The notes under the pieces: generated by a model
The model's input: only the letters and a program-made list of their open reading frames with translations
What the model was told of the DNA's origin: nothing
The model's database searches: none
Position numbers and translations under genes: made by a program
Origin: Caballeronia sp. SEWSISQ10-4 2
GTDB lineage: Bacteria > Pseudomonadota > Gammaproteobacteria > Burkholderiales > Burkholderiaceae
Reading direction: 5' to 3'
DNA length: 64,000 nt
Assembly (NCBI RefSeq): GCF_030464885.1
Contig: NZ_JALPRJ010000012.1
Location: 62,001 to 126,000, forward strand
In this document: positions 34,768 through 44,380 of the stretch, in pieces
How the letters are laid out: every line of letters starts with the position of its first letter
Position numbering within the stretch: the stretch's first letter is position 1

Positions 34768-35748
34768 ATGAAAAAGCTGCTCAAGATCTACCTGCAAAAA
34801 CCGGAACTGGCGGGTGTCGTGTTGCTCGCGGTGCTGATCGCTTTGTTCCAGGTGCGCTCGCAGATGATATTTCTCAGCGCCGAAAACATCCGTGGCGTGC
34901 TTGGCGTGTTGCCTGAAGTGGGGCTTGTTGCTATCGGCGTGACGCTGTTGATGATCTGCGGCGAGTTCGATTTGTCGGTGGGGTCGGTGTTTGCTCTTAC
35001 ACCCATGTCGATCACCTTGCTCATGAACGCCGGCGTGCCCTTCTGGCCGGCGTTTTTTATCGGGCTCGTGGTGGCCGCGTGCGTCGGGCTCGCCAACGGA
35101 TTGATCACGCTGGTGTTCAACATACCGAGTTTCATCACGACGCTTGGCATGTTGTTCATCGTGAGATCACTGACTGTCGTGTTATCGGGTGGCTTTCCTC
35201 CTAACCTGCCCATAGAACGAATGCCCGCGGAACTGTTCGTTAGCTTTATCGGGCCGGAGGGATTGTTTCGTGCGTCGTTTCTTTGGTTTATCGGCATCGG
35301 GGCAGCGGCGGCGTTCTTGTTGTCCGCAACCAATCTCGGTAACTGGATGAAAGCGACCGGCGGGTTTCTTGAAGCGTCCATATCGAGCGGTGTGCCGGCG
35401 CGGCGCGTGAAGCTGTTTTCCTTCGTGCTGTGTGCGGTGCTCGCCGGTTTCGCCGGCTTGATCCAGGTGCTTCGGCTTGGCGCGGCGCTTCCATCAATAG
35501 GCGATGGTCTCGAACTACAAGCGGTCGCTGCTGCGGTGATCGGCGGGACTGCGCTGTCTGGCGGGATAGGCAACGTACTTGGCGCGGTGGTGGGTGCTCT
35601 GCTGATTCGCGTGATTGATAACGGCCTCGTGCTGACGCAAGTCGATGCCAACTGGTTCAAGTTCGCAGTCGGCAGCCTGACCATTTTTGCGGTGGTCGCC
35701 AACGCATGGATGCGCCGCACGGCGCGACATCTGAAGGTACAGCTATGA
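34768..35748 (+). CDS. Sugar ABC transporter permease (RbsC-like)
   Basis: 326 residues, 8-10 hydrophobic segments, with the family signature GEFDLSVGSVFAL and the C-terminal GIGNVLGAVVGALLIRVIDNGL. Inner-membrane subunit of the importer. It starts nine bases after the binding-protein gene with AGGAG and overlaps the ATPase gene by ATGA. Confidence 0.93.
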   Translation: MKKLLKIYLQKPELAGVVLLAVLIALFQVRSQMIFLSAENIRGVLGVLPEVGLVAIGVTLLMICGEFDLSVGSVFALTPMSITLLMNAGVPFWPAFFIGLVVAACVGLANGLITLVFNIPSFITTLGMLFIVRSLTVVLSGGFPPNLPIERMPAELFVSFIGPEGLFRASFLWFIGIGAAAAFLLSATNLGNWMKATGGFLEASISSGVPARRVKLFSFVLCAVLAGFAGLIQVLRLGAALPSIGDGLELQAVAAAVIGGTALSGGIGNVLGAVVGALLIRVIDNGLVLTQVDANWFKFAVGSLTIFAVVANAWMRRTARHLKVQL

Positions 35749-36545
35749 ACACGATCTCTTCTGAGGCGCTGCACTCGTACACCAATGACGGCGTGACGGC
35801 CGACGCGCTAAGCACATCGACCGCGCTGATGGCCGTGCGCAACTTGCACAAGTGGTACTCCGGCGTGCATGCGCTCAAAGGGGTGAGCCTGGAATTCAAA
35901 CGCGGCGAAGTCGTGGGCCTGCTTGGCGATAACGGCGCGGGCAAGTCGACGCTCATCAAGATTCTATCGGGCGTGCATCGGCCGGATGAAGGCGAGATCC
36001 TGTTTCAGGGCCGGCCTGTGCGCATCCCATCACCCAAAGCGGCGATGCAACTCGGTATCGAAACGATTCATCAGCATAACTCGCTGGTGCCGAATCTATC
36101 GATTGCGCGTAATGTGTTTATCGGGCGTGAGCCATTGCTGTTTTCGCTATTCGGCATTGGACCGATGGACCACGCGCGGATGCGCACCGAAGCCGTCAAG
36201 GCCATCGCCGATGTAGACCTGCATCTGCGTTCCGCCGAAGCGCTGCTGGGTGAGCTATCGGGCGGCCAGCGCCAGGGCGTGGCGATTGCACGCGCCATGC
36301 ATTTCAAGTCGAAGCTATTGATCCTCGATGAACCGACCAATCATCTATCCGTCAAGGAAACGGACAAGGTCATTGGATTTGTGCGGGGTTTATCGGCGCA
36401 GGGCATCACGGGCGTGTTCATCAGCCACAACCTGCAGCATGTGTTTCACTCGTGCGACCGGATTGTTGCCATGGCGCGCGGAGAGGTCGTGCTCGACCGG
36501 CCGGTAGCGGAGACGTCTATCGAGGAAGTGACGGAAATGCTTTGA
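35745..36545 (+). CDS. Sugar ABC transporter ATP-binding protein
   Basis: 266 residues, a single ATPase domain instead of the fused double domain common in ribose-type systems. Walker A GDNGAGKST, signature LSGGQRQ, Walker B LLILDEP and the switch His in FISHN are present. Start at the ATG at 35745 overlapping the permease stop. The first ~30 residues before the domain are extra. Confidence 0.93.
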   Translation: MNTISSEALHSYTNDGVTADALSTSTALMAVRNLHKWYSGVHALKGVSLEFKRGEVVGLLGDNGAGKSTLIKILSGVHRPDEGEILFQGRPVRIPSPKAAMQLGIETIHQHNSLVPNLSIARNVFIGREPLLFSLFGIGPMDHARMRTEAVKAIADVDLHLRSAEALLGELSGGQRQGVAIARAMHFKSKLLILDEPTNHLSVKETDKVIGFVRGLSAQGITGVFISHNLQHVFHSCDRIVAMARGEVVLDRPVAETSIEEVTEML

Positions 36546-36570
36546 TCGATTACTAGCGGAGACATGAATC

Positions 36571-37380
36571 GTGGAACAGTTCGGCGACAAGGTGGCCGTG
36601 GTCACCGGCGGTACTCAGGGACTTGGCGCTGCGATTGCAGCGCTATTGGTCGAGCGCGGTGCAAGCGGCGTGGTTATTTGCGGGCGTTCGCGAGACAAGG
36701 GTGAAGCGAAGGCGCGTGAACTGAGCGAGGCGAGCGGCGTGGACGTGCGTTACGTGCAAGCGGATCTCTCTCAAGTCGAGGATTGCCGGGCGGTGATCGC
36801 GGCGGCGGACGCGTGGTTTGGGCGCATTGATGTGCTGGTCAATGCAGCGGCCATGACCGATCGCGGCACGATCCTCGATACCGACCCCGCTCTCTTCGAT
36901 CGCATCTTCGCGACTAACGTGCGCGCGCCGTTTTTCCTGATGCAGGAGACCGTCCGCGTCATGCGGCGCGAGCGCACTGAAGGGGCTATCGTCAACATTT
37001 GCTCGATGTCGGCGATGGCAGGGCAACCGTTCATCGCGGCGTATTGCGCGTCGAAGGGCGCGCTGGCCACGTTGACGCAGAACACGGGGTACGCGCTCTT
37101 GCGTAACCGGATCCGCGTGAATGGTTTGAATCTCGGCTGGATGGCCTCCGATGGCGAGGACCGGATCCAGCGGGAATATCACGGCGCGAGTGATGATTGG
37201 CTGGCGCAGGCGGGGGCGGTGCAGCCGTTTGGGCGGCTGATCGAACCGGAAGAAGCGGCGCGCGCGGTTGCATTTCTGGCGAGCGGCGAGTCGGGTCTGA
37301 TGACGGGATCGATGGTGAATTACGATCAGTCGGTGTGGGGTGCGTTCGATGACACGCCACATCCGGGGGCGCCGCTTTAG
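36571..37380 (+). CDS. SDR family oxidoreductase
   Basis: 269 residues. TGGTQGLG cofactor motif, VNAAAM in place of NNAG, Ser in CSMSAMAG and YCASK for catalysis. It begins at GTG with GGAG upstream and follows the ABC ATPase gene by 25 bases, so it closes the importer operon. It probably oxidises a hydroxyl of the imported sugar or cyclitol, the job done by MocA (an unrelated Gfo/Idh-type enzyme) in rhizopine clusters. Confidence 0.9.
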   Translation: MEQFGDKVAVVTGGTQGLGAAIAALLVERGASGVVICGRSRDKGEAKARELSEASGVDVRYVQADLSQVEDCRAVIAAADAWFGRIDVLVNAAAMTDRGTILDTDPALFDRIFATNVRAPFFLMQETVRVMRRERTEGAIVNICSMSAMAGQPFIAAYCASKGALATLTQNTGYALLRNRIRVNGLNLGWMASDGEDRIQREYHGASDDWLAQAGAVQPFGRLIEPEEAARAVAFLASGESGLMTGSMVNYDQSVWGAFDDTPHPGAPL

Positions 37381-37388
37381 CAAAATGA

Positions 37389-38306
37389 CTAAAGATTGCT
37401 CGCGACCGAACGTGGTTCCATGAACGTGTGGCGGAAGTATTCCCGTACCGCATGCATCCCGGGACTGAACTCGCGGTTCTTGCGCCATGCGAGGCCAACG
37501 CTCATTGGCGGAACCGGATCGCGCAGGACCATGGTTTCGATCCGTTTTCCTTCCAGCGACCAGGGGCGGTAGACCATATCCGACAAGATGGCGACGCCAC
37601 TGCCGTTCGCCACCATGCTGCGCACCGCCTCCACCGACGATGTCCGCAGCTTCACATTGGGCCGATGCGGCGTATCGGCCCAATAGCGCAGCGCGGTATA
37701 AGCAGCCTCATCGACAGTCAGCATGACGAACGGTTCTGGAGCGACATCGGCGAGCGTTACGCTTTCACGCTTGAGCAAGGGATGATGCGCACAAAGCCAA
37801 AGCCGGCGCGCCGAGTGAATCACGGGTTCCAGTACGAGTTCCGGGTTCGCCACGTTCGATGTCAATAGCACGGCCATGTCGTAGCGTTCGGTGATCAGGC
37901 CTTCTTCGATCGACTCGCGATTCAGCTCGTGCAGATTAATGGTGAGCAGCGGATAGAGCGTGCTTAGCCTCTGAAGATGATGCGGCAGGAAGTAACCGAT
38001 CACGGTATAGCTCGCGGCGATCGTAAGGGTGCCAGTCAGCGTGCTCTCGAGATTCGGGATCCGCATGGCCTCTTCGACGGACGAAAGAATGGTGTACGCC
38101 TGATTCAGGAATTTGCGCCCGGTCTGAGTCAGCGTCACGCCGCTCGCCATGCGCACGAATAGCTGGGTGCCAAGGCTGTCTTCGAGCTCCTTTATCGCGT
38201 TTGTCACTGCCGACTGGGAAATCGTGAGCTGGATTGCAGCCTGCGATATCTGCCCGAGTTCAGCCGTCGCCACGAAGTATTTGAGCTGCCGCAAAGTCAA
38301 AGCCAT
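37389..38306 (-). CDS. LysR family transcriptional regulator
   Basis: About 305 residues: N-terminal helix-turn-helix (QISQAAIQLTISQSAVTNAI) and a LysR effector domain. Start set at MALTLRQLKYF (38306), the family norm; the frame extends to 38342. It converges on the SDR gene and is divergent from the pxp/biotin carboxylase operon, which it probably controls. A palindrome at 38435-38450 lies in the shared spacer. Confidence 0.92.
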   Translation of the reverse strand: MALTLRQLKYFVATAELGQISQAAIQLTISQSAVTNAIKELEDSLGTQLFVRMASGVTLTQTGRKFLNQAYTILSSVEEAMRIPNLESTLTGTLTIAASYTVIGYFLPHHLQRLSTLYPLLTINLHELNRESIEEGLITERYDMAVLLTSNVANPELVLEPVIHSARRLWLCAHHPLLKRESVTLADVAPEPFVMLTVDEAAYTALRYWADTPHRPNVKLRTSSVEAVRSMVANGSGVAILSDMVYRPWSLEGKRIETMVLRDPVPPMSVGLAWRKNREFSPGMHAVREYFRHTFMEPRSVASNL

Positions 38307-38434
38307 GATGCCCGCCGAAAAATTGATATTGCACGCCGCCATATCTTATTCGCGCAAAATTACCAGGTCGAGTGACCGCGGCAATAAGGCAAGCGGTTGG
38401 CGTCCCATCAAAAAAACAGATACAGGGTCATCTG

Positions 38435-38450: not shown

Positions 38451-38539
38451 GGCGAGCCGCCACACCATAAGGTTCACGTAATCGGCATTGCGGGCGAGCG
38501 GTGGTGCACACCCAGGCCGATGAACCAGGAGCGCCAATC

Positions 38540-39319
38540 GTGAAAAAACGCAGTATCGACCTGAATTCGGACATGGGCGAAGGTTTCGGTCCATGGACCA
38601 TCGGCGACGGTGTGGACGCCGAGATCATGCCGCTGATCAGTTCAGCCAATATCGCCACGGGTTTCCATGCCGGAGACCCGAACATCATGGCGCGCACGGT
38701 TCAATCGGCGAAAGAAGCGGGCGTAGGCGTGGGCGCGCACCCGGGCTTTCGCGATCTGGTTGGATTCGGCCGCCGCACGATCACCGAGTCACCCCAGGCG
38801 CTTGTCAACGACATCGTGTTCCAGCTAGGAGCACTGCGCGAGTTCGCGAGGCTCGCAAACGTCGGCGTGCAGCATGTAAAGCCTCACGGTGCGCTCTACA
38901 TGCTCGCCGCAAAGGATGAAGAGCTGTCGCGCTGTCTGGTTGCGACCCTGCAGAAAATCGATCCGAGCTTGCTGTTGTACTGCATGGAGTCGTCGGTGAC
39001 CTATCAGGTTGCCCGCGAATTGGGCCAGCCCGTGGTCCGCGAGTTCTACGCCGATCGTGACTACGACGCGAGCGGGTCGATCGTTTTCACCCGCCGCGTC
39101 GGCCGGCTCGATGCAGCCCAGGTCGCCGCAAAAGTACTGCGCGCCTGCGTGGAAGGACGCGTGACGACGATCGAAGGTGGCGAGATAGACATCGACTTCG
39201 ATTCGGTCTGCATCCATAGCGACACGCCCGGTGCACTCGAACTCGTCCAGGCAACGCGTGACACGCTGATTCGCCACGACATTCGCATCGCCGCGCCGCA
39301 ACCGGCTTTCCCCCAATAA
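38540..39319 (+). CDS. pxpA: 5-oxoprolinase subunit A (LamB/YcsF family)
   Basis: 259 residues. The LamB/YcsF family is a TIM-barrel-like hydrolase subunit, here with the diagnostic [13 protein letters not shown] near the N-terminus, [11 protein letters not shown] and [12 protein letters not shown] start at the GTG at 38540 with AGGAG upstream. With PxpB and PxpC it makes ATP-dependent 5-oxoprolinase in other bacteria; here biotin carboxylase parts lie between the genes, so the substrate may be another lactam or cyclic amide. Confidence 0.92.
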
Positions 39320-39349
39320 TTCCGACACGCCTGAGACAGGAGTACGAGC

Positions 39350-39592
39350 ATGGCCCAACACGACATTGTCAGCCCTTTGCCCGGGACGTTCTATAGGCGC
39401 TCATCGCCCGATGCCGCGCCGTTCGTCGAGGTCGGCGTCGAGATTGAGGAAGGCGCGACTGTGGGGCTGGTCGAGGTCATGAAGCAGTTCAGCGAAATCG
39501 AATCGACGGCTACAGGCCGCGTGACGAAGATCCTGGCCGAAGATGGCGACCCGGTCGACGCGGGTCAGGTTCTGATGCGAGTCGAGGAATAA
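39350..39592 (+). CDS. Biotin carboxyl carrier domain protein
   Basis: 80 residues, just the biotinyl/lipoyl-type domain. The biotinylated Lys is K45 in EVMKQF, where AccB proteins usually have AMK. No Pro/Ala-rich N-terminal extension like that of AccB. It follows pxpA and precedes the carboxylase gene, so it likely carries carboxybiotin within this operon's enzyme rather than for fatty acid synthesis. Confidence 0.9.
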   Translation: MAQHDIVSPLPGTFYRRSSPDAAPFVEVGVEIEEGATVGLVEVMKQFSEIESTATGRVTKILAEDGDPVDAGQVLMRVEE

Positions 39593-39596
39593 GCCG

Positions 39597-41006
39597 ATGT
39601 CCTTGGACGCCTTCTATACACCGCGACGCATTCGCACCGTGCTGGTCGCCAATCGCGGAGAGATCGCTGTGCGGATCATTCGCGCGGCGCAGGAACTGGG
39701 CATGCGTGCGGCCGTGACTGTCAGCGATGCGGACCGGGACAGCCTCGCCGCGCGCATGGCTGACGTAGCCGTGCCGATCGGGTCGGCGCACGCCGCTAAA
39801 AGTTATCTCAATCCAGCCGCCATTCTTGAAGCGGCTCAACAATGTGGCGCGGATGCGATTCATCCGGGCTATGGATTTTTATCGGAAAACGCGGCGTTCG
39901 CAGAGAAGGTCGAGACCGCGGGGCTGATCTTCGTCGGCCCGTCTTCGTCAATCATTGCGATGATGGGCGACAAGGCCCGCGCACGTGCCACCGCGCAACG
40001 CGCAGGCGTGCCGACCGTGCCCGGCAGCGAGGGCGTACTCGACTCACTCGATCAGGCGCGCGATGTCGCCGGCCGCATTGGTTATCCGGTGATGATCAAG
40101 GCCGCTGCCGGCGGGGGCGGACGCGGCATTCGCGTAGCACACGATGCGGCTCAGCTCGATGTGGAGTTACCGCTCGCGCAACGTGAGGCACAAGCAGCGT
40201 TCGGCAACGCCGAAGTCTATCTGGAACGCTTCATCGGGCGGGCGCGCCACATTGAAGTGCAAGTACTTGGCGATGGCAAGAACGTCGTCCATCTGTTCGA
40301 GCGCGAGTGCTCCCTGCAACGGCGTCGACAGAAGATCTTCGAGGAAGCACCCTCGCCTTCGCTGACGCGTGAACTACGCACATCGTTATGCGAATCGGCT
40401 ACGCGACTGGCTCAGGAAGTCGGATATCGAAGTGCGGGCACGCTCGAATATCTGTTCGACGAAACACGCGGCGAGTTTTACTTCATCGAAATGAACACGC
40501 GTATCCAGGTCGAGCATCCGGTGACCGAAGCCATAACGGGCATTGACCTCGTGCGTGAATCCTTACGCATTGCAGATGGCGAGCCGTTGCGCTTTGAACA
40601 AGGCGATATCGTCATGCGCGGAGCCGCTATCGAATGCCGCATCAATGCCGAAGATCCGGATCGCGATTTCCGTCCGAGTCCGGGCCGTATCGATAAACTG
40701 GTGTGGCCGGCTGGCCCGGGCGTGCGAATCGATTCCATGCTGTATCAGGGCTACACCATCCCGCCATTCTATGACTCGTTGCTGGCGAAACTTATTGTCT
40801 TCGACGAAAGCCGGCCGGCGGCGCTTGCACGACTCGATCGTGCGTTGCGCGAGATGAAGATAGGCGGTGTCAAGACAACCGCGCCGCTGCATCAGGCCAT
40901 GCTTGCAGACCCGGATATCCGCGCGGGCCGATACCACACGAACCATCTTGAAGCATGGATGGCGCAACGCAATGCAAAACTTGGCGAGAGTGAGGAGGCA
41001 GCATGA
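39597..41006 (+). CDS. Biotin carboxylase (AccC-like)
   Basis: 469 residues, full-length ATP-grasp biotin carboxylase: KAAAGGGGRGIRVA for ATP, FIEMNTRIQVEHPVTE for metal and catalysis, and the C-terminal domain. It carboxylates the biotin carrier using bicarbonate and ATP. Four bases separate it from the carrier gene and it overlaps pxpB by ATGA. The chromosomal acetyl-CoA carboxylase usually has its own accBC, so this is probably a specialised copy. Confidence 0.92.
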   Translation: MSLDAFYTPRRIRTVLVANRGEIAVRIIRAAQELGMRAAVTVSDADRDSLAARMADVAVPIGSAHAAKSYLNPAAILEAAQQCGADAIHPGYGFLSENAAFAEKVETAGLIFVGPSSSIIAMMGDKARARATAQRAGVPTVPGSEGVLDSLDQARDVAGRIGYPVMIKAAAGGGGRGIRVAHDAAQLDVELPLAQREAQAAFGNAEVYLERFIGRARHIEVQVLGDGKNVVHLFERECSLQRRRQKIFEEAPSPSLTRELRTSLCESATRLAQEVGYRSAGTLEYLFDETRGEFYFIEMNTRIQVEHPVTEAITGIDLVRESLRIADGEPLRFEQGDIVMRGAAIECRINAEDPDRDFRPSPGRIDKLVWPAGPGVRIDSMLYQGYTIPPFYDSLLAKLIVFDESRPAALARLDRALREMKIGGVKTTAPLHQAMLADPDIRAGRYHTNHLEAWMAQRNAKLGESEEAA

Positions 41007-41878
41007 ACGTCCGTTACACATTCGGCGGCGATGAGTTCATCTTCGTCGAGATCAGCGAGGACATGTCGCTCGATGCGTTCTTCAAGGGCACGGCCATCAC
41101 ACGCGAGCTGCAGCGTCGCAACGTGGCGGGCGTGACGGAAATTTGTCCGGCGAACGCGTCGTATCAGGTTCGATACGATCCGGACGTGATCGCGCCCGAG
41201 ACGCTGCTGGCCCTGCTTAAAGAGATCGATGCAGAAGTGGCGGATGCCCCTCTGGAATTGGAGACGCGCATCGTAGAAGTACCTGTGCTCTACAACGATC
41301 CGTGGACCCATGAGACGCTCATGCGTTTTCGGGAGCGCCACCAGGACCCGTCATCGACCGATCTGAAGTACGCCGCGCGCATCAACGGCCTAAGCACCGT
41401 CGACGCGTTCATCGCCGCACATTCCGGTGCGCCATGGTTTGTTTCGATGGTCGGTTTCGTCGCGGGCCTGCCCTTCATGTTCCAGATGGTCGAGAGATCG
41501 CGGCAACTCGAAGTGCCGAAGTATCTGCGGCCTCGTACCGATACCCCCAAACTCACCGTCGGCCACGGCGGCTGTTTCGGTTGCATCTACTCGGTGCGCG
41601 GCGCGGGTGGGTACCAGATGTTCGGCGTGACACCCGCCCCGATCTTCGACCCTCAGCAACGCCTTTCTTACTTGCGTGATTTCATGGTGTTCTTCAAGCC
41701 TGGCGATATCGTCAAGTTCAAGCCGATCGACCGGCAAACCTATGATCGCGCCGTTGCCGAGGTCGAAGCGGGCACGTTCGAACTGCGCGTGAAACCCGTG
41801 AAATTCGTATTGAGCGAATTCAAGCATGACCCCGATGCCTATAACCGCACACTCGCCGAGGTCCTCGATGCCGACTGA
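41003..41878 (+). CDS. pxpB: 5-oxoprolinase subunit B (KipI / AHS1 family)
   Basis: 291 residues, AHS1/KipI family, the same fold as one central domain of urea carboxylase. Visible: FVSMVGFVAGLPFMFQM and VGHGGCFGCIYSVRGAGGYQMFGVTP. The N-terminal ~90 residues form the usual KipI cap. Coupled to the carboxylase gene (ATGA) and overlapping pxpC by 11 bases. Confidence 0.92.
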   Translation: MNVRYTFGGDEFIFVEISEDMSLDAFFKGTAITRELQRRNVAGVTEICPANASYQVRYDPDVIAPETLLALLKEIDAEVADAPLELETRIVEVPVLYNDPWTHETLMRFRERHQDPSSTDLKYAARINGLSTVDAFIAAHSGAPWFVSMVGFVAGLPFMFQMVERSRQLEVPKYLRPRTDTPKLTVGHGGCFGCIYSVRGAGGYQMFGVTPAPIFDPQQRLSYLRDFMVFFKPGDIVKFKPIDRQTYDRAVAEVEAGTFELRVKPVKFVLSEFKHDPDAYNRTLAEVLDAD

Positions 41879-42863
41879 CAAAACCTGCGTGATTGAAGTG
41901 GTGAAGCCGGGGTTGGCGACCTCGGTTCAGGATACCGGGCGGCAAGGTTACTACTACGTCGGCATTCCGCCGTCGGGTGCGCTCGACCAGTTTTCGTTGC
42001 GAGCGGCGAACCTGCTGGTTGGAAATAGCGAAGATGCGGCGGCGCTCGAATGCACGTTGCTTGGACCGCAACTGGTCTTTCATTCAGACACACTGATTGC
42101 CGTCACAGGCGCCGAGATGACGCCAAAGATCGATGGCGTCGCACAGGCCTGCAACGTCTCGCTGCGTATCAAGGCCGGCAGCACACTGACCTTCGATCAC
42201 GTGAAGGCGGGCGCACGGGCGTGCCTCGCGGTGGCGGGCGGTATCGATGTGCCGGTGGTCCTTGGCAGCCGCTCGACCTACACCCTGGGTGCGATCGGCG
42301 GACTCGAAGGGCGACGCTTGCAAAAGGGCGATCGATTGACAAGCTTTGCACCCGGTCACCAAGCGAAAGAAGGCCGTGAGCTCCCCGCCGATCTCCGAAT
42401 GCCTCTCGCCAGGGAAATCGAACTGCGTGTGCTGCCCGGGCTCTATCACCATCGCCTGACCGATGAATCGGCCCACACCTTCTTCGATGACACCTGGGTG
42501 GTCGCGCCGGAAGCGGACCGCATTGGCTACCGGTACAAGCAGGGACGTGCGCTGCAATTCCGCGAACGTGTGCAGCCTTTTGGCGCGGGCGCCGACTCTT
42601 CGAACATCGTCGATGCGTGTTATCCGATCGGCTCCATCCAGGTGCCCGGCGGTCTCGAACCGATCATCCTGCATCGCGATGCCGTCTCGGGTGGCGGCTA
42701 CGCCACCATCGGCACCGTGATCAGCGCGGACATGGATCTCATCGGCCAGATGCAGCCGAATCATCGCGCGCGTTTTGTCGCGGTATCGATGGACCAGACG
42801 CTCACTGCGCGTCGCGCCGCAAGCGCAAGACTTCTTCGTTTGCGCGACGTGCTGGGTCGTTAG
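41868..42863 (+). CDS. pxpC: 5-oxoprolinase subunit C (KipA / AHS2 family)
   Basis: 331 residues, AHS2/KipA family, also found as a domain of urea carboxylase. Signature pieces SVQDTGRQGYYYVGIPPSG and the C-terminal GGYATIGTVISADMDLIGQM are intact. Start at the ATG at 41868 with GAGG upstream; an in-frame ATG at 41826 would overlap pxpB further. Last gene before a double hairpin. Confidence 0.92.
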   Translation: MPTDKTCVIEVVKPGLATSVQDTGRQGYYYVGIPPSGALDQFSLRAANLLVGNSEDAAALECTLLGPQLVFHSDTLIAVTGAEMTPKIDGVAQACNVSLRIKAGSTLTFDHVKAGARACLAVAGGIDVPVVLGSRSTYTLGAIGGLEGRRLQKGDRLTSFAPGHQAKEGRELPADLRMPLAREIELRVLPGLYHHRLTDESAHTFFDDTWVVAPEADRIGYRYKQGRALQFRERVQPFGAGADSSNIVDACYPIGSIQVPGGLEPIILHRDAVSGGGYATIGTVISADMDLIGQMQPNHRARFVAVSMDQTLTARRAASARLLRLRDVLGR

Positions 42864-42896
42864 CAACGTACTCTTTTGAATCGAAGCAAACCCGCA

Positions 42897-42940
42897 GCGT
42901 CGTGCTAGTCACGACGCCGCGCGGGAGACGTTCGCCCGCG
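42897..42940 (+). terminator. Double hairpin after pxpC
   Basis: GCGTCGTG-N5-CACGACGC (42897-42917) followed by CGCGGG-N9-CCCGCG (42920-42940). A T6 run comes only about 18 bases later. Either a strong but atypical terminator or an attenuator reducing permease expression. Confidence 0.55.
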
Positions 42941-43027
42941 GTTATTCCAGTCGTGCTTTTTTCTATTTGCGGGCGTTAGCGGGTCGCGCCTGCTTCTTTC
43001 ACTCTACTGCCTGAAGGAGCAAGGATC

Positions 43028-44380
43028 ATGGCTAACTTGTCGAAGGACCCTGCGGGACACGAACGGGATTTATCGACACACTCCGTTCCCGACAGCGCCC
43101 GAATGCCCGCATTTTCGCTGACTATGGCGTGGTGGGCCGTCTGCAGCGCGGTGTTTTATATCGTGGTCGGGGCAGCGCTCGCGCTACAGTACGGCACGCG
43201 CAATGCGCTGATCGGCATGGCGCTTTCAGTCATCTCGTATGGCATTGTCAATTCAATCATCAGCCGCTATGCGATCCGCACCGGGTTGTCGGTAGCGCTA
43301 TTCTCGCGCGTGCTGTTTGGAGGTGCAGGAGCCGCGCTCGCTACGCTGATCTTCTTCGCCACGGCGATCTACTACGCTGTCTTCGAAGGCTCCGTGATCG
43401 CAGTCGCGGCGCACAACCTCTTCCCGGCGCTGGACTATAAGTGGGCGGCGCTGATCGTAGTCTGCTACAGCGTGCCGCTGGTGTTCGGCAGCGTCCAGCA
43501 CTGGCTCGACAAGTTCAACGGTGTGCTGCTGCCCTTCTATCTGCTAGGCCTGCTGGCAGCAGTGCTTCTGACGACCCACGAGTATGGCTACAACGCAGCG
43601 TGGCTCGACTTCGGCCCCAAGGGCACGATACCCGCGAACGGCTGGTGGAATTGCTTCGTGTATTACATGGGCGTGTGGGTCCTGATGATGTTCACCTTCG
43701 ACTATGCGCGCTTCGGCCGCCAGAAGGATGCACCCTATCACGGCCGCTTCAATTTCGGCATGCCGTTCTATCTCGTCACATTCCTGCTGAACGGCGCAGT
43801 CGGTATTTATCTGGTCAGCACGATTCCCGGATTGGGGCCGCTCTCGGAAGTATCGGTGGTGCTCGCGCTGCTGAAGCTGATGGGGATATGGGGCCTTCTG
43901 TTCGTGTGGGTTACGCAGTCGCGCATCAACACGGCGAACTACTATCTTGCCGCGATCAACATGCAAGCGTTCTTTCGAAAGGTCGCAGGTCTGCACGCGC
44001 CGAAGTTCGTCTGGGCACTCGTGGTCGGCGTAGTGGTGTATGCGCTGATGATGGCCGACGTGTTTTCAAAGATCCTGCAAGCACTCGCCTATCAGGGAAT
44101 CTTTGTGGTAGCGTGGGTTGGCGTTGCGCTTGCCCATATTCTGTCGACCAAGGTCGACACCTTGCTCGGTGCAGAGATCGAGTGTCGCGACTCACACGTA
44201 CCCGCGTTCAATCCGGGCGGCCTGACTGCATGGTTCGCCGGCGCGTTCGCGGGGTTGCTGCTGATGAACCTTCCGGGTGTGTTGCAATCGTTCTCCGCAC
44301 CGGCCACGTTCGTCGTATCGTGGGTGACTTACCGGGCAATGCTTGTTGCCGCTAAACGAACGTGGTTCGTACGCGGCTAA
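43028..44380 (+). CDS. NCS1 family nucleobase/ureide permease
   Basis: 450 residues with about 12 membrane segments, purine-cytosine permease family (PF02133). Features include FSRVLFGGAGAALATLIFF and NGWWNCFVYYMGVWVLMMF. The family moves cytosine, allantoin, hydantoins and related compounds with Na+ or H+. AGGAG precedes the ATG. Downstream of the split carboxylase operon, it suggests a cyclic amide or ureide substrate. Confidence 0.9.
   Translation: MANLSKDPAGHERDLSTHSVPDSARMPAFSLTMAWWAVCSAVFYIVVGAALALQYGTRNALIGMALSVISYGIVNSIISRYAIRTGLSVALFSRVLFGGAGAALATLIFFATAIYYAVFEGSVIAVAAHNLFPALDYKWAALIVVCYSVPLVFGSVQHWLDKFNGVLLPFYLLGLLAAVLLTTHEYGYNAAWLDFGPKGTIPANGWWNCFVYYMGVWVLMMFTFDYARFGRQKDAPYHGRFNFGMPFYLVTFLLNGAVGIYLVSTIPGLGPLSEVSVVLALLKLMGIWGLLFVWVTQSRINTANYYLAAINMQAFFRKVAGLHAPKFVWALVVGVVVYALMMADVFSKILQALAYQGIFVVAWVGVALAHILSTKVDTLLGAEIECRDSHVPAFNPGGLTAWFAGAFAGLLLMNLPGVLQSFSAPATFVVSWVTYRAMLVAAKRTWFVRG

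Follow-up and report, generated by a model that had tools for sequence, protein, structure and literature searches.

A widespread operon of separate urea-carboxylase-type subunits and a PxpA-like protein in Caballeronia, a candidate biotin-dependent system for opening cyclic amides

Described systems and the Caballeronia operon

Urea carboxylase and urea amidolyase (TIGR02712; the Kluyveromyces enzyme KlUA) combine biotin carboxylase (BC), carboxyltransferase (CT; the CT_A_B and CT_C_D domains), and biotin carboxyl carrier protein (BCCP) modules. Here, we analyzed an operon that encodes these modules as four separate chains, beside a LamB/YcsF protein of the PxpA subfamily and an NCS1-like permease. 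It lies in a 64,000-nucleotide stretch of Caballeronia sp. SEWSISQ10-4 2 (contig NZ_JALPRJ010000012.1, positions 62,001 to 126,000; the window), from a genome of 9.44 Mb in 212 contigs. We lean toward the view that the operon specifies a multi-subunit, biotin-dependent N-carboxylase of the urea carboxylase type that is coupled to the PxpA hydrolase and opens a cyclic amide.

Several described systems resemble this operon in part. With urea carboxylase it shares the modules, the CT lysine, and an insert in CT_C_D, and it differs in having four separate chains, no allophanate hydrolase, an added PxpA, and probably another substrate. Separate gene pairs for CT of the urea carboxylase type were noted in 2011, when it was asked whether they partner with other BCs and the question was left why this CT is more widespread than the corresponding BC (PMC3199775). 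With the 5-oxoprolinase PxpABC, the operon shares the PxpA subfamily and homologous AHS1/AHS2 chains; unlike PxpABC, it has CT chains under the PxpB and PxpC cut-offs, Lys in place of Arg, the urea-carboxylase-like insert, and a dedicated BC and BCCP. PxpA-type enzymes of Corynebacterium glutamicum pxpTABC open 5-oxoproline, which PxpBC is assumed to phosphorylate (PMC13274462), ATP hydrolysis by PxpB/PxpC being cited second-hand. The caprolactamase CapAB is similar in opening a lactam with ATP and bicarbonate, with its genes adjacent in several alphaproteobacteria; unlike the window operon, it belongs to the HyuA/HyuB families and has no biotin subunits (PMC8453981). Caprolactam opening is uphill by a calculated 23 kJ/mol, both ATP and bicarbonate are required, and a carboxylated lactim is among the options that the authors consider (PMC8453981); OplAB of P. 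putida also requires bicarbonate (PMC11033972). PDB entry 9yx5 holds AHS1/AHS2 chains together with an acyl-CoA carboxylase alpha3 subunit (BC-BCCP type); unlike in the window operon, that subunit is an acyl-CoA carboxylase alpha, and the AHS1 chain has Arg at the Lys position. A literature search found no paper on this entry.

The combination of parts is not wholly new, a similar Acinetobacter operon, mumTLUHC of A. baumannii, having been published; we take its mumL to encode a LamB/YcsF protein. It resembles the window operon in containing a BC homolog, an allophanate-hydrolase homolog, and genes of no predicted function and in its link to nitrogen use, and differs, compared by description only, in having an NRAMP manganese transporter and being described as a urea enzyme (PMC5050338). 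In the open-access literature searched, we found no paper describing the window enzyme and none reporting urea-carboxylase-type CT together with PxpA, the link to caprolactamase genes, or the absence of BC and BCCP in relatives. The genes of the locus are as follows.

37389 to 38342, minus strand: LysR-type regulator (Pfam HTH_1 and LysR_substrate), neighboring the operon in 75 of the 80 survey loci
38501 to 39319 (start perhaps 38540), plus strand: PxpA-like LamB/YcsF protein, probable hydrolase subunit (PF03746, 297 bits, E 1.4e-88)
39350 to 39592, plus strand: BCCP of 80 aa, biotin site Lys45 in EVMKQF (PF00364 Biotin_lipoyl, E 1.9e-16)
39597 to 41006, plus strand: BC (three Pfam domains, best E 8.3e-75)
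41003 to 41878, plus strand: CT_C_D carboxyltransferase chain (PF02682, 136 bits, E 1.8e-39)
41826 to 42863 (start perhaps 41868), plus strand: CT_A_B carboxyltransferase chain (PF02626, 298 bits, E 1.2e-88)
43028 to 44380, plus strand: NCS1-like permease, probable substrate uptake (PF02133, 20.8 bits, cut-off 23.5)

The six genes from PxpA to the permease form one head-to-tail run on the plus strand (38501-44380), with the divergent LysR gene adjoining. Spacing among the five core genes is at most 30 bp or they overlap, and the permease gene starts 164 bp after the last of them. The family matches and the single gene run bear out the first-pass annotation, made from the sequence alone, in which the four parts of urea carboxylase were seen as separate genes accompanied by PxpA and an NCS1 permease. 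Scored against the single-chain model TIGR02712, the parts reach 529, 248, 112, and 31 bits, each under the cut-off of 1303.85; all four catalytic modules of urea carboxylase are encoded, and the general-base lysine of the CT is present. Only the permease is a weak family match, 2.7 bits under the Pfam cut-off for NCS1; two relatives scanned against the same model fall on either side of it (L196, 30.7 bits; L084, 20.9 bits), and a PDB sequence search for the permease's substrate returned three matches, the best an unrelated protein at E 0.67.

Carboxyltransferase type, biotin subunits, and paralogous enzymes

The operon had initially been named pxpABC plus a biotin carboxylase, a name that fails because both CT chains fall under the curated PxpB and PxpC cut-offs. 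We found that the CT_C_D chain scores 112 bits with the urea carboxylase model and 75 bits with the PxpB model TIGR00370 (cut-off 145.55), while the CT_A_B chain scores 271.5 bits with the general model TIGR00724 (cut-off 230.2), 248 bits with the urea carboxylase model, and 213 bits with the PxpC model NF045499 (cut-off 500). By sequence, both chains have their closest PDB relatives in Kluyveromyces urea carboxylase/amidolyase (entries 3va7 and 5i8i). In KlUA, Lys1605 has been named as the probable essential CT base (PMC5770610), and Lys173 of the window CT_C_D chain sits opposite it in a HMMER alignment. This column is lysine throughout our survey set, which comprises the best 80 of at least 500 relatives from a contig profile scan and leans to close kin (80/80 loci; 54/54 with BC and 26/26 without). 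It is also lysine in 14/14 further loci, in the genome's own one-chain urea carboxylase, and in three loci that we call type 3, and it is arginine in the three PxpB-type paralogs of the genome (contigs C34, C36, and C159). The window CT_C_D chain and urea carboxylase have in common an insert of ~20 residues that is missing from the PxpB-type chains in the alignment. A CT tree of 87 rows (the window, L039, L040, 77 of the 80 survey loci, the type-3 loci, and the genome's four other CT pairs) groups the 80 window-type rows together (support 99) and separates them from the three PxpB/PxpC-type pairs (99), with urea carboxylase and type 3 on the window-type side (joined at 82); its branches are long, and the tool warned that such joins may be false.

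The BC scores 867.6 bits with NF009471 (cut-off 686) and, at 631.8 bits, is just over the cut-off of TIGR00514 (626.5); the BCCP scores 130.5 bits with NF005457 (cut-off 87) and 88 bits with TIGR00531, under its cut-off of 115.2. At 14 positions that we presume to be those of the BC active site, picked by E. coli AccC numbering and read off the AccC of the genome, the window BC has the same residue as that AccC at 13, the other being H236, which is R here and N in urea carboxylase. All 54 BC-bearing relatives match the window BC at these positions, one gap excepted. In the carrier, Lys45 was correctly placed as the biotin site by the first-pass annotation, which also remarked that EVMKQF departs from the usual AMK; the difference stands and the oddity does not, VMK being the constant motif of the family (52/52 loci with BCCP found; two other BC-bearing survey loci end before the BCCP gene). 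By their residues, then, BC and BCCP look functional. Distances for BC and CT correlate (r 0.91-0.95), and those for LysR and BC do so equally well (0.92), which argues for an old operon rather than for specific BC-CT pairing.

Both NF009471 and NF005457 bear the NCBIfam name of acetyl-CoA carboxylase, and this, with the narrow pass on TIGR00514, could be read as an extra acetyl-CoA or acyl-CoA carboxylase. We hold that reading to be very improbable: unlike acetyl-CoA carboxylase, the operon has a CT of the AHS type only, with no AccA/AccD-type CT found, and separate accBC genes lie on contig C130. The acetyl-CoA carboxylase reading was rejected on these two grounds.

A profile search found five CT_C_D genes in the genome, the window gene included. 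One lies on contig C34 within a pxpB-pxpC-pxpA run, whose next neighbors are presumably DUF969/DUF979 genes, and another belongs to a lone pxpB-pxpC pair on contig C159. Contig C36 carries a second BC-bearing split operon (L020:6219-11038) with LysR upstream, consisting of BCCP (EAMKMF), BC, PxpB-type and PxpC-type CT chains, PxpA, and a BCCP-like protein of 142 aa that lacks an MK biotin site. On contig C177, a one-chain urea carboxylase of ~1220 residues adjoins an allophanate-hydrolase-like gene; because a guanidine-II riboswitch stands at its start (L021:7975-8022), this enzyme is probably a guanidine carboxylase. Thus, 5-oxoproline, guanidine/urea, and acetyl-CoA each have another candidate enzyme in the genome, and the window operon most likely acts on a substrate other than these.

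That the operon carboxylates urea-type substrates, as a split urea or guanidine carboxylase whose reaction PxpA or another enzyme would complete, is in our view distinctly unlikely. The CT and its catalytic lysine do resemble urea carboxylase, and A. baumannii mumTLUHC, with mumC as biotin carboxylase and mumH as "allophanate hydrolase" homolog, is tied to urea use, mumC being needed for urea as a nitrogen source (PMC5050338). However, the Caballeronia genome already has its one-chain enzyme behind the guanidine-II riboswitch, no allophanate hydrolase was found in the window operon, and the PxpA family and the HyuA/CapA neighbors of relatives (below) suggest ring substrates; deletion of mumH, moreover, left urea use intact (PMC5050338), which would be odd if mumH were the CT.

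We also consider it quite unlikely that the operon encodes a second, biotin-using 5-oxoprolinase. The window PxpA passes the subfamily model NF003814 (295 bits, cut-off 226), although not the equivalog PxpA models, and C. glutamicum pxpTABC offers a precedent for 5-oxoproline (PMC13274462). Against this stand the CT scores, the pxpB-pxpC-pxpA run elsewhere in the genome, and a further CT_C_D gene of at least 202 bits in 40/40 Pseudomonas genomes, read by eye and not necessarily a canonical PxpB (in G079, it adjoins a BC). A plain 5-oxoprolinase was ruled out by the PxpB/PxpC cut-offs and the pxpBCA paralog. In an alignment, the window PxpA has the motif HSDTP where the genome's two other PxpA proteins have HGD.

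Related loci and their neighboring genes

The operon is real and widespread. In the survey set, BC is present in 54 of 80 loci and absent from 26, all Pseudomonas; the recurrence of the part set including BC in 54 loci excludes chance. PxpA occurs in 78, the remaining two being cut by contig ends, NCS1 in 30, and an ABC binding protein of the sugar type in 18. Among the matches listed, the nearest named relative at the locus is Caballeronia mineralivorans (L045; CT_C_D 96%). In a phylum sample of 398 genomes, 17, the window's included, have a separate CT chain of at least 400 bits; the query alignment contained three type-3 sequences, so type-3 loci (e.g., G013) are counted among the 17, and G439 is probably the same genome as L117. 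Other CT matches in that sample at E 1e-40 reach at most 174 bits and, as with one-chain urea carboxylase, belong to frames 1171-1694 residues long. Fourteen of the 16 non-window phylum loci were examined, with PxpA in 13, BC in 12, and BCCP in 11; L186 and L191 have neither BC nor BCCP, and L192 is cut. The type-3 loci (L041-L044) have CT 37-38% identical, with BC, BCCP, and transporter-like genes, and a GroEL-like gene that scores well under the GroEL cut-offs (scanned in L043 only). Next to the window's LysR gene are genes for an SDR oxidoreductase and a sugar-type ABC ATPase (35706-37380); four close relatives (L035, L037, L045, and L046) also have both beside the operon.

The neighbors of related operons bear on the substrate. 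HyuB/HyuA-type genes follow the operon in L078, L082, and L115, and HyuA in L070. In L082, where a class-III aminotransferase gene comes next, they score above the cut-off of 1000 for the caprolactamase subunits CapB (1101 bits) and CapA (1245 bits). The HyuA/HyuB genes beside the operon in L184 and L196 (481 and 529 bits) are not CapA proper. Enrichment was tested on loci not chosen by their neighbors; hand-picked genomes, some picked for HyuA, were left uncounted. In the phylum sample, 3/16 non-window genomes (G116, at 13.5 kb, G258, and G409) have a same-strand HyuA-family gene at most 15 kb away, against 0.11 expected (P 1.4e-4), and one in G222, 14.8 kb away on the other strand, was not counted. 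An alphaproteobacterial sample of 385 genomes gave 24 with the CT at E 1e-90 (19 at 484 bits or more and five more distant, near 310 bits), 23 of which, G116 excepted, were searched for CapA. CapA is over its cut-off in 4/23 (G580, G769, G815, and G817), always within 5 kb and on the CT's strand. At least 6/23 (these four, G594, and G579, the last with one of the more distant CTs) have a HyuA-family gene on the same strand no more than 15 kb away, against 0.66 expected (P 1.8e-5). The matches are partly dependent, G817 being the same as the genome of L115 and G580 and G769 sharing one genus; without G817, HyuA is nearby in at least 5/22 genomes (P 2.3e-4). Hydantoinase- and caprolactamase-type genes thus stand nearby more often than chance, which points to cyclic amides over urea; the first-pass annotation had named a hydantoin, lactam, or ureide as plausible. 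Other neighbors include an amidase and a PuuE/polysaccharide-deacetylase-like gene (L038 and L078) and xanthine-dehydrogenase-family genes (L115, L184, and L189). Four genomes of 3.3-3.9 Mb (G579, G682, G768, and G839) have 19-31 HyuA-family matches each at E 1e-90.

Several observations weigh against a biotin-dependent, ring-opening enzyme. HyuA or CapA is near only 4/80 survey loci (8-kb flanks), most relatives having no lactam gene nearby, and CapA is over its cut-off in 3/16 phylum-sample genomes (G116, G292, and G479) but within 15 kb only in G116. No HyuA gene adjoins the operon inside the window, and the genome's three HyuA-family matches all lie on other contigs; the case for a lactam therefore comes from relatives. 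Arginine occupies the Lys173 column in the AHS1 chain of 9yx5 and in the BC-linked C36 operon; lysine alone therefore marks kinship and does not mark carboxyl transfer. Finally, the 26 Pseudomonas survey relatives keep PxpA and both CT chains without a dedicated BC or BCCP. The idea of a urea-carboxylase-like enzyme is supported for the parts, the CT base, and the BC and BCCP residues; the BC-less relatives speak against a strict four-part enzyme.

Pseudomonas operons without biotin subunits

Forty Pseudomonas genomes were searched, namely 14 of the 18 with a BC-bearing locus and the full 26 with a BC-less one. NF009471 BC is over its cut-off in 13/14 BC-bearing and 0/26 BC-less genomes; the fourteenth, G087, reaches 658 bits over 354/467 positions. 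NF005457 BCCP is over its cut-off in 14/14 and 1/26, respectively, and in the sole BC-less genome with a match (G061, 88.6 bits) the carrier stands beside a different BC. Other BC-type genes occur in 40/40 genomes. Median ratios of nonsynonymous to synonymous substitution rates (dN/dS) for PxpA and the CT chains are 0.085, 0.051, and 0.078 in BC-less loci (n = 26, 26, and 25) and 0.072, 0.035, and 0.056 in 17 BC-bearing Pseudomonas, and PxpA and the CT chains of BC-less genomes are thus under purifying selection. No CT_C_D column separates BC-bearing from BC-less relatives at 85% in each group.

The BC state changes at least five times on the protein tree and four times on a DNA tree of 43 Pseudomonas loci; on well-supported branches only, there are one and two independent contrasts, respectively. 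Since BC is present in the tree's outgroup loci, the simpler direction of change is loss, and BC and BCCP would have been lost at least twice on the DNA tree. The NCS1 permease is found in 16/18 BC-bearing and 0/26 BC-less Pseudomonas loci (0/25 among tree rows), some BC-less loci (L099, L107, and L112) being cut by contig ends. An association of NCS1 loss with BC/BCCP loss was rejected as not significant, given one to two independent contrasts on well-supported branches.

In the BC-less loci, either the housekeeping AccBC serves the CT pair or biotin is dispensable. We favor AccBC because the urea-carboxylase-type lysine is kept and because 9yx5 holds AHS1/AHS2 with a subunit of the BC-BCCP type. 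The converse, that the CT pair and PxpA work biotin-free by phosphorylation, as is assumed for PxpBC (PMC13274462), itself cited as showing ATP hydrolysis, with BC and BCCP as accessories, seems unlikely to us. The low dN/dS of PxpA and CT in BC-less Pseudomonas (0.05-0.09) fits it. On the other side, neither CT chain, in the window or in the other operons scanned, matches an ATP-binding Pfam family at E 0.001, the lysine is retained in every BC-less locus, and other BC-type genes are present in all 40 genomes.

Proposed mechanism and implications

For the cyclic-amide N-carboxylase that we prefer, the steps would run as follows. BC would spend ATP to put CO2 from bicarbonate on biotin-Lys45 of BCCP, and the CT_C_D/CT_A_B pair, in a putative complex with them, would hand the carboxyl on to a cyclic amide, at its amide nitrogen (or oxygen); this substrate, most likely a lactam or a related ring, would be imported by the NCS1 permease. 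PxpA would then cut the amide bond so activated, and loss of CO2 from the resulting carbamate would pull the unfavorable ring opening forward. A biotin-borne carboxyl followed by PxpA hydrolysis and decarboxylation may thereby meet the energetic need seen for CapAB. Biotin-dependent carboxylation of an amide or lactam followed by hydrolysis had been predicted in the first-pass annotation, and the conserved parts and residues speak for it, the chemistry being a prediction from sequence; its reading is partly supported overall, and its observation of the gene set is confirmed.

A broader and rather doubtful proposal is that the whole AHS1/AHS2 superfamily, PxpBC included, consists of carboxybiotin-dependent amide carboxyltransferases that borrow AccB/AccC (or AccA3) where needed. 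If true, it would answer the 2011 question of why CT outnumbers BC of the urea carboxylase type (PMC3199775) and would explain an ATP-dependent enzyme without a recognized ATP-binding domain. The BC-less Pseudomonas loci offer a sharp test of whether a CT borrows biotin from fatty-acid synthesis, one of two options that this paper left open (PMC3199775).

If the operon is a cyclic-amide N-carboxylase, widespread subunit names that refer to acetyl-CoA carboxylase or 5-oxoprolinase would be wrong, and bacteria would have, alongside CapAB, a second and biotin-driven route by which stable lactams and cyclic amides are opened. Lactam opening is relevant to nylon monomers and to nitrogen scavenging.

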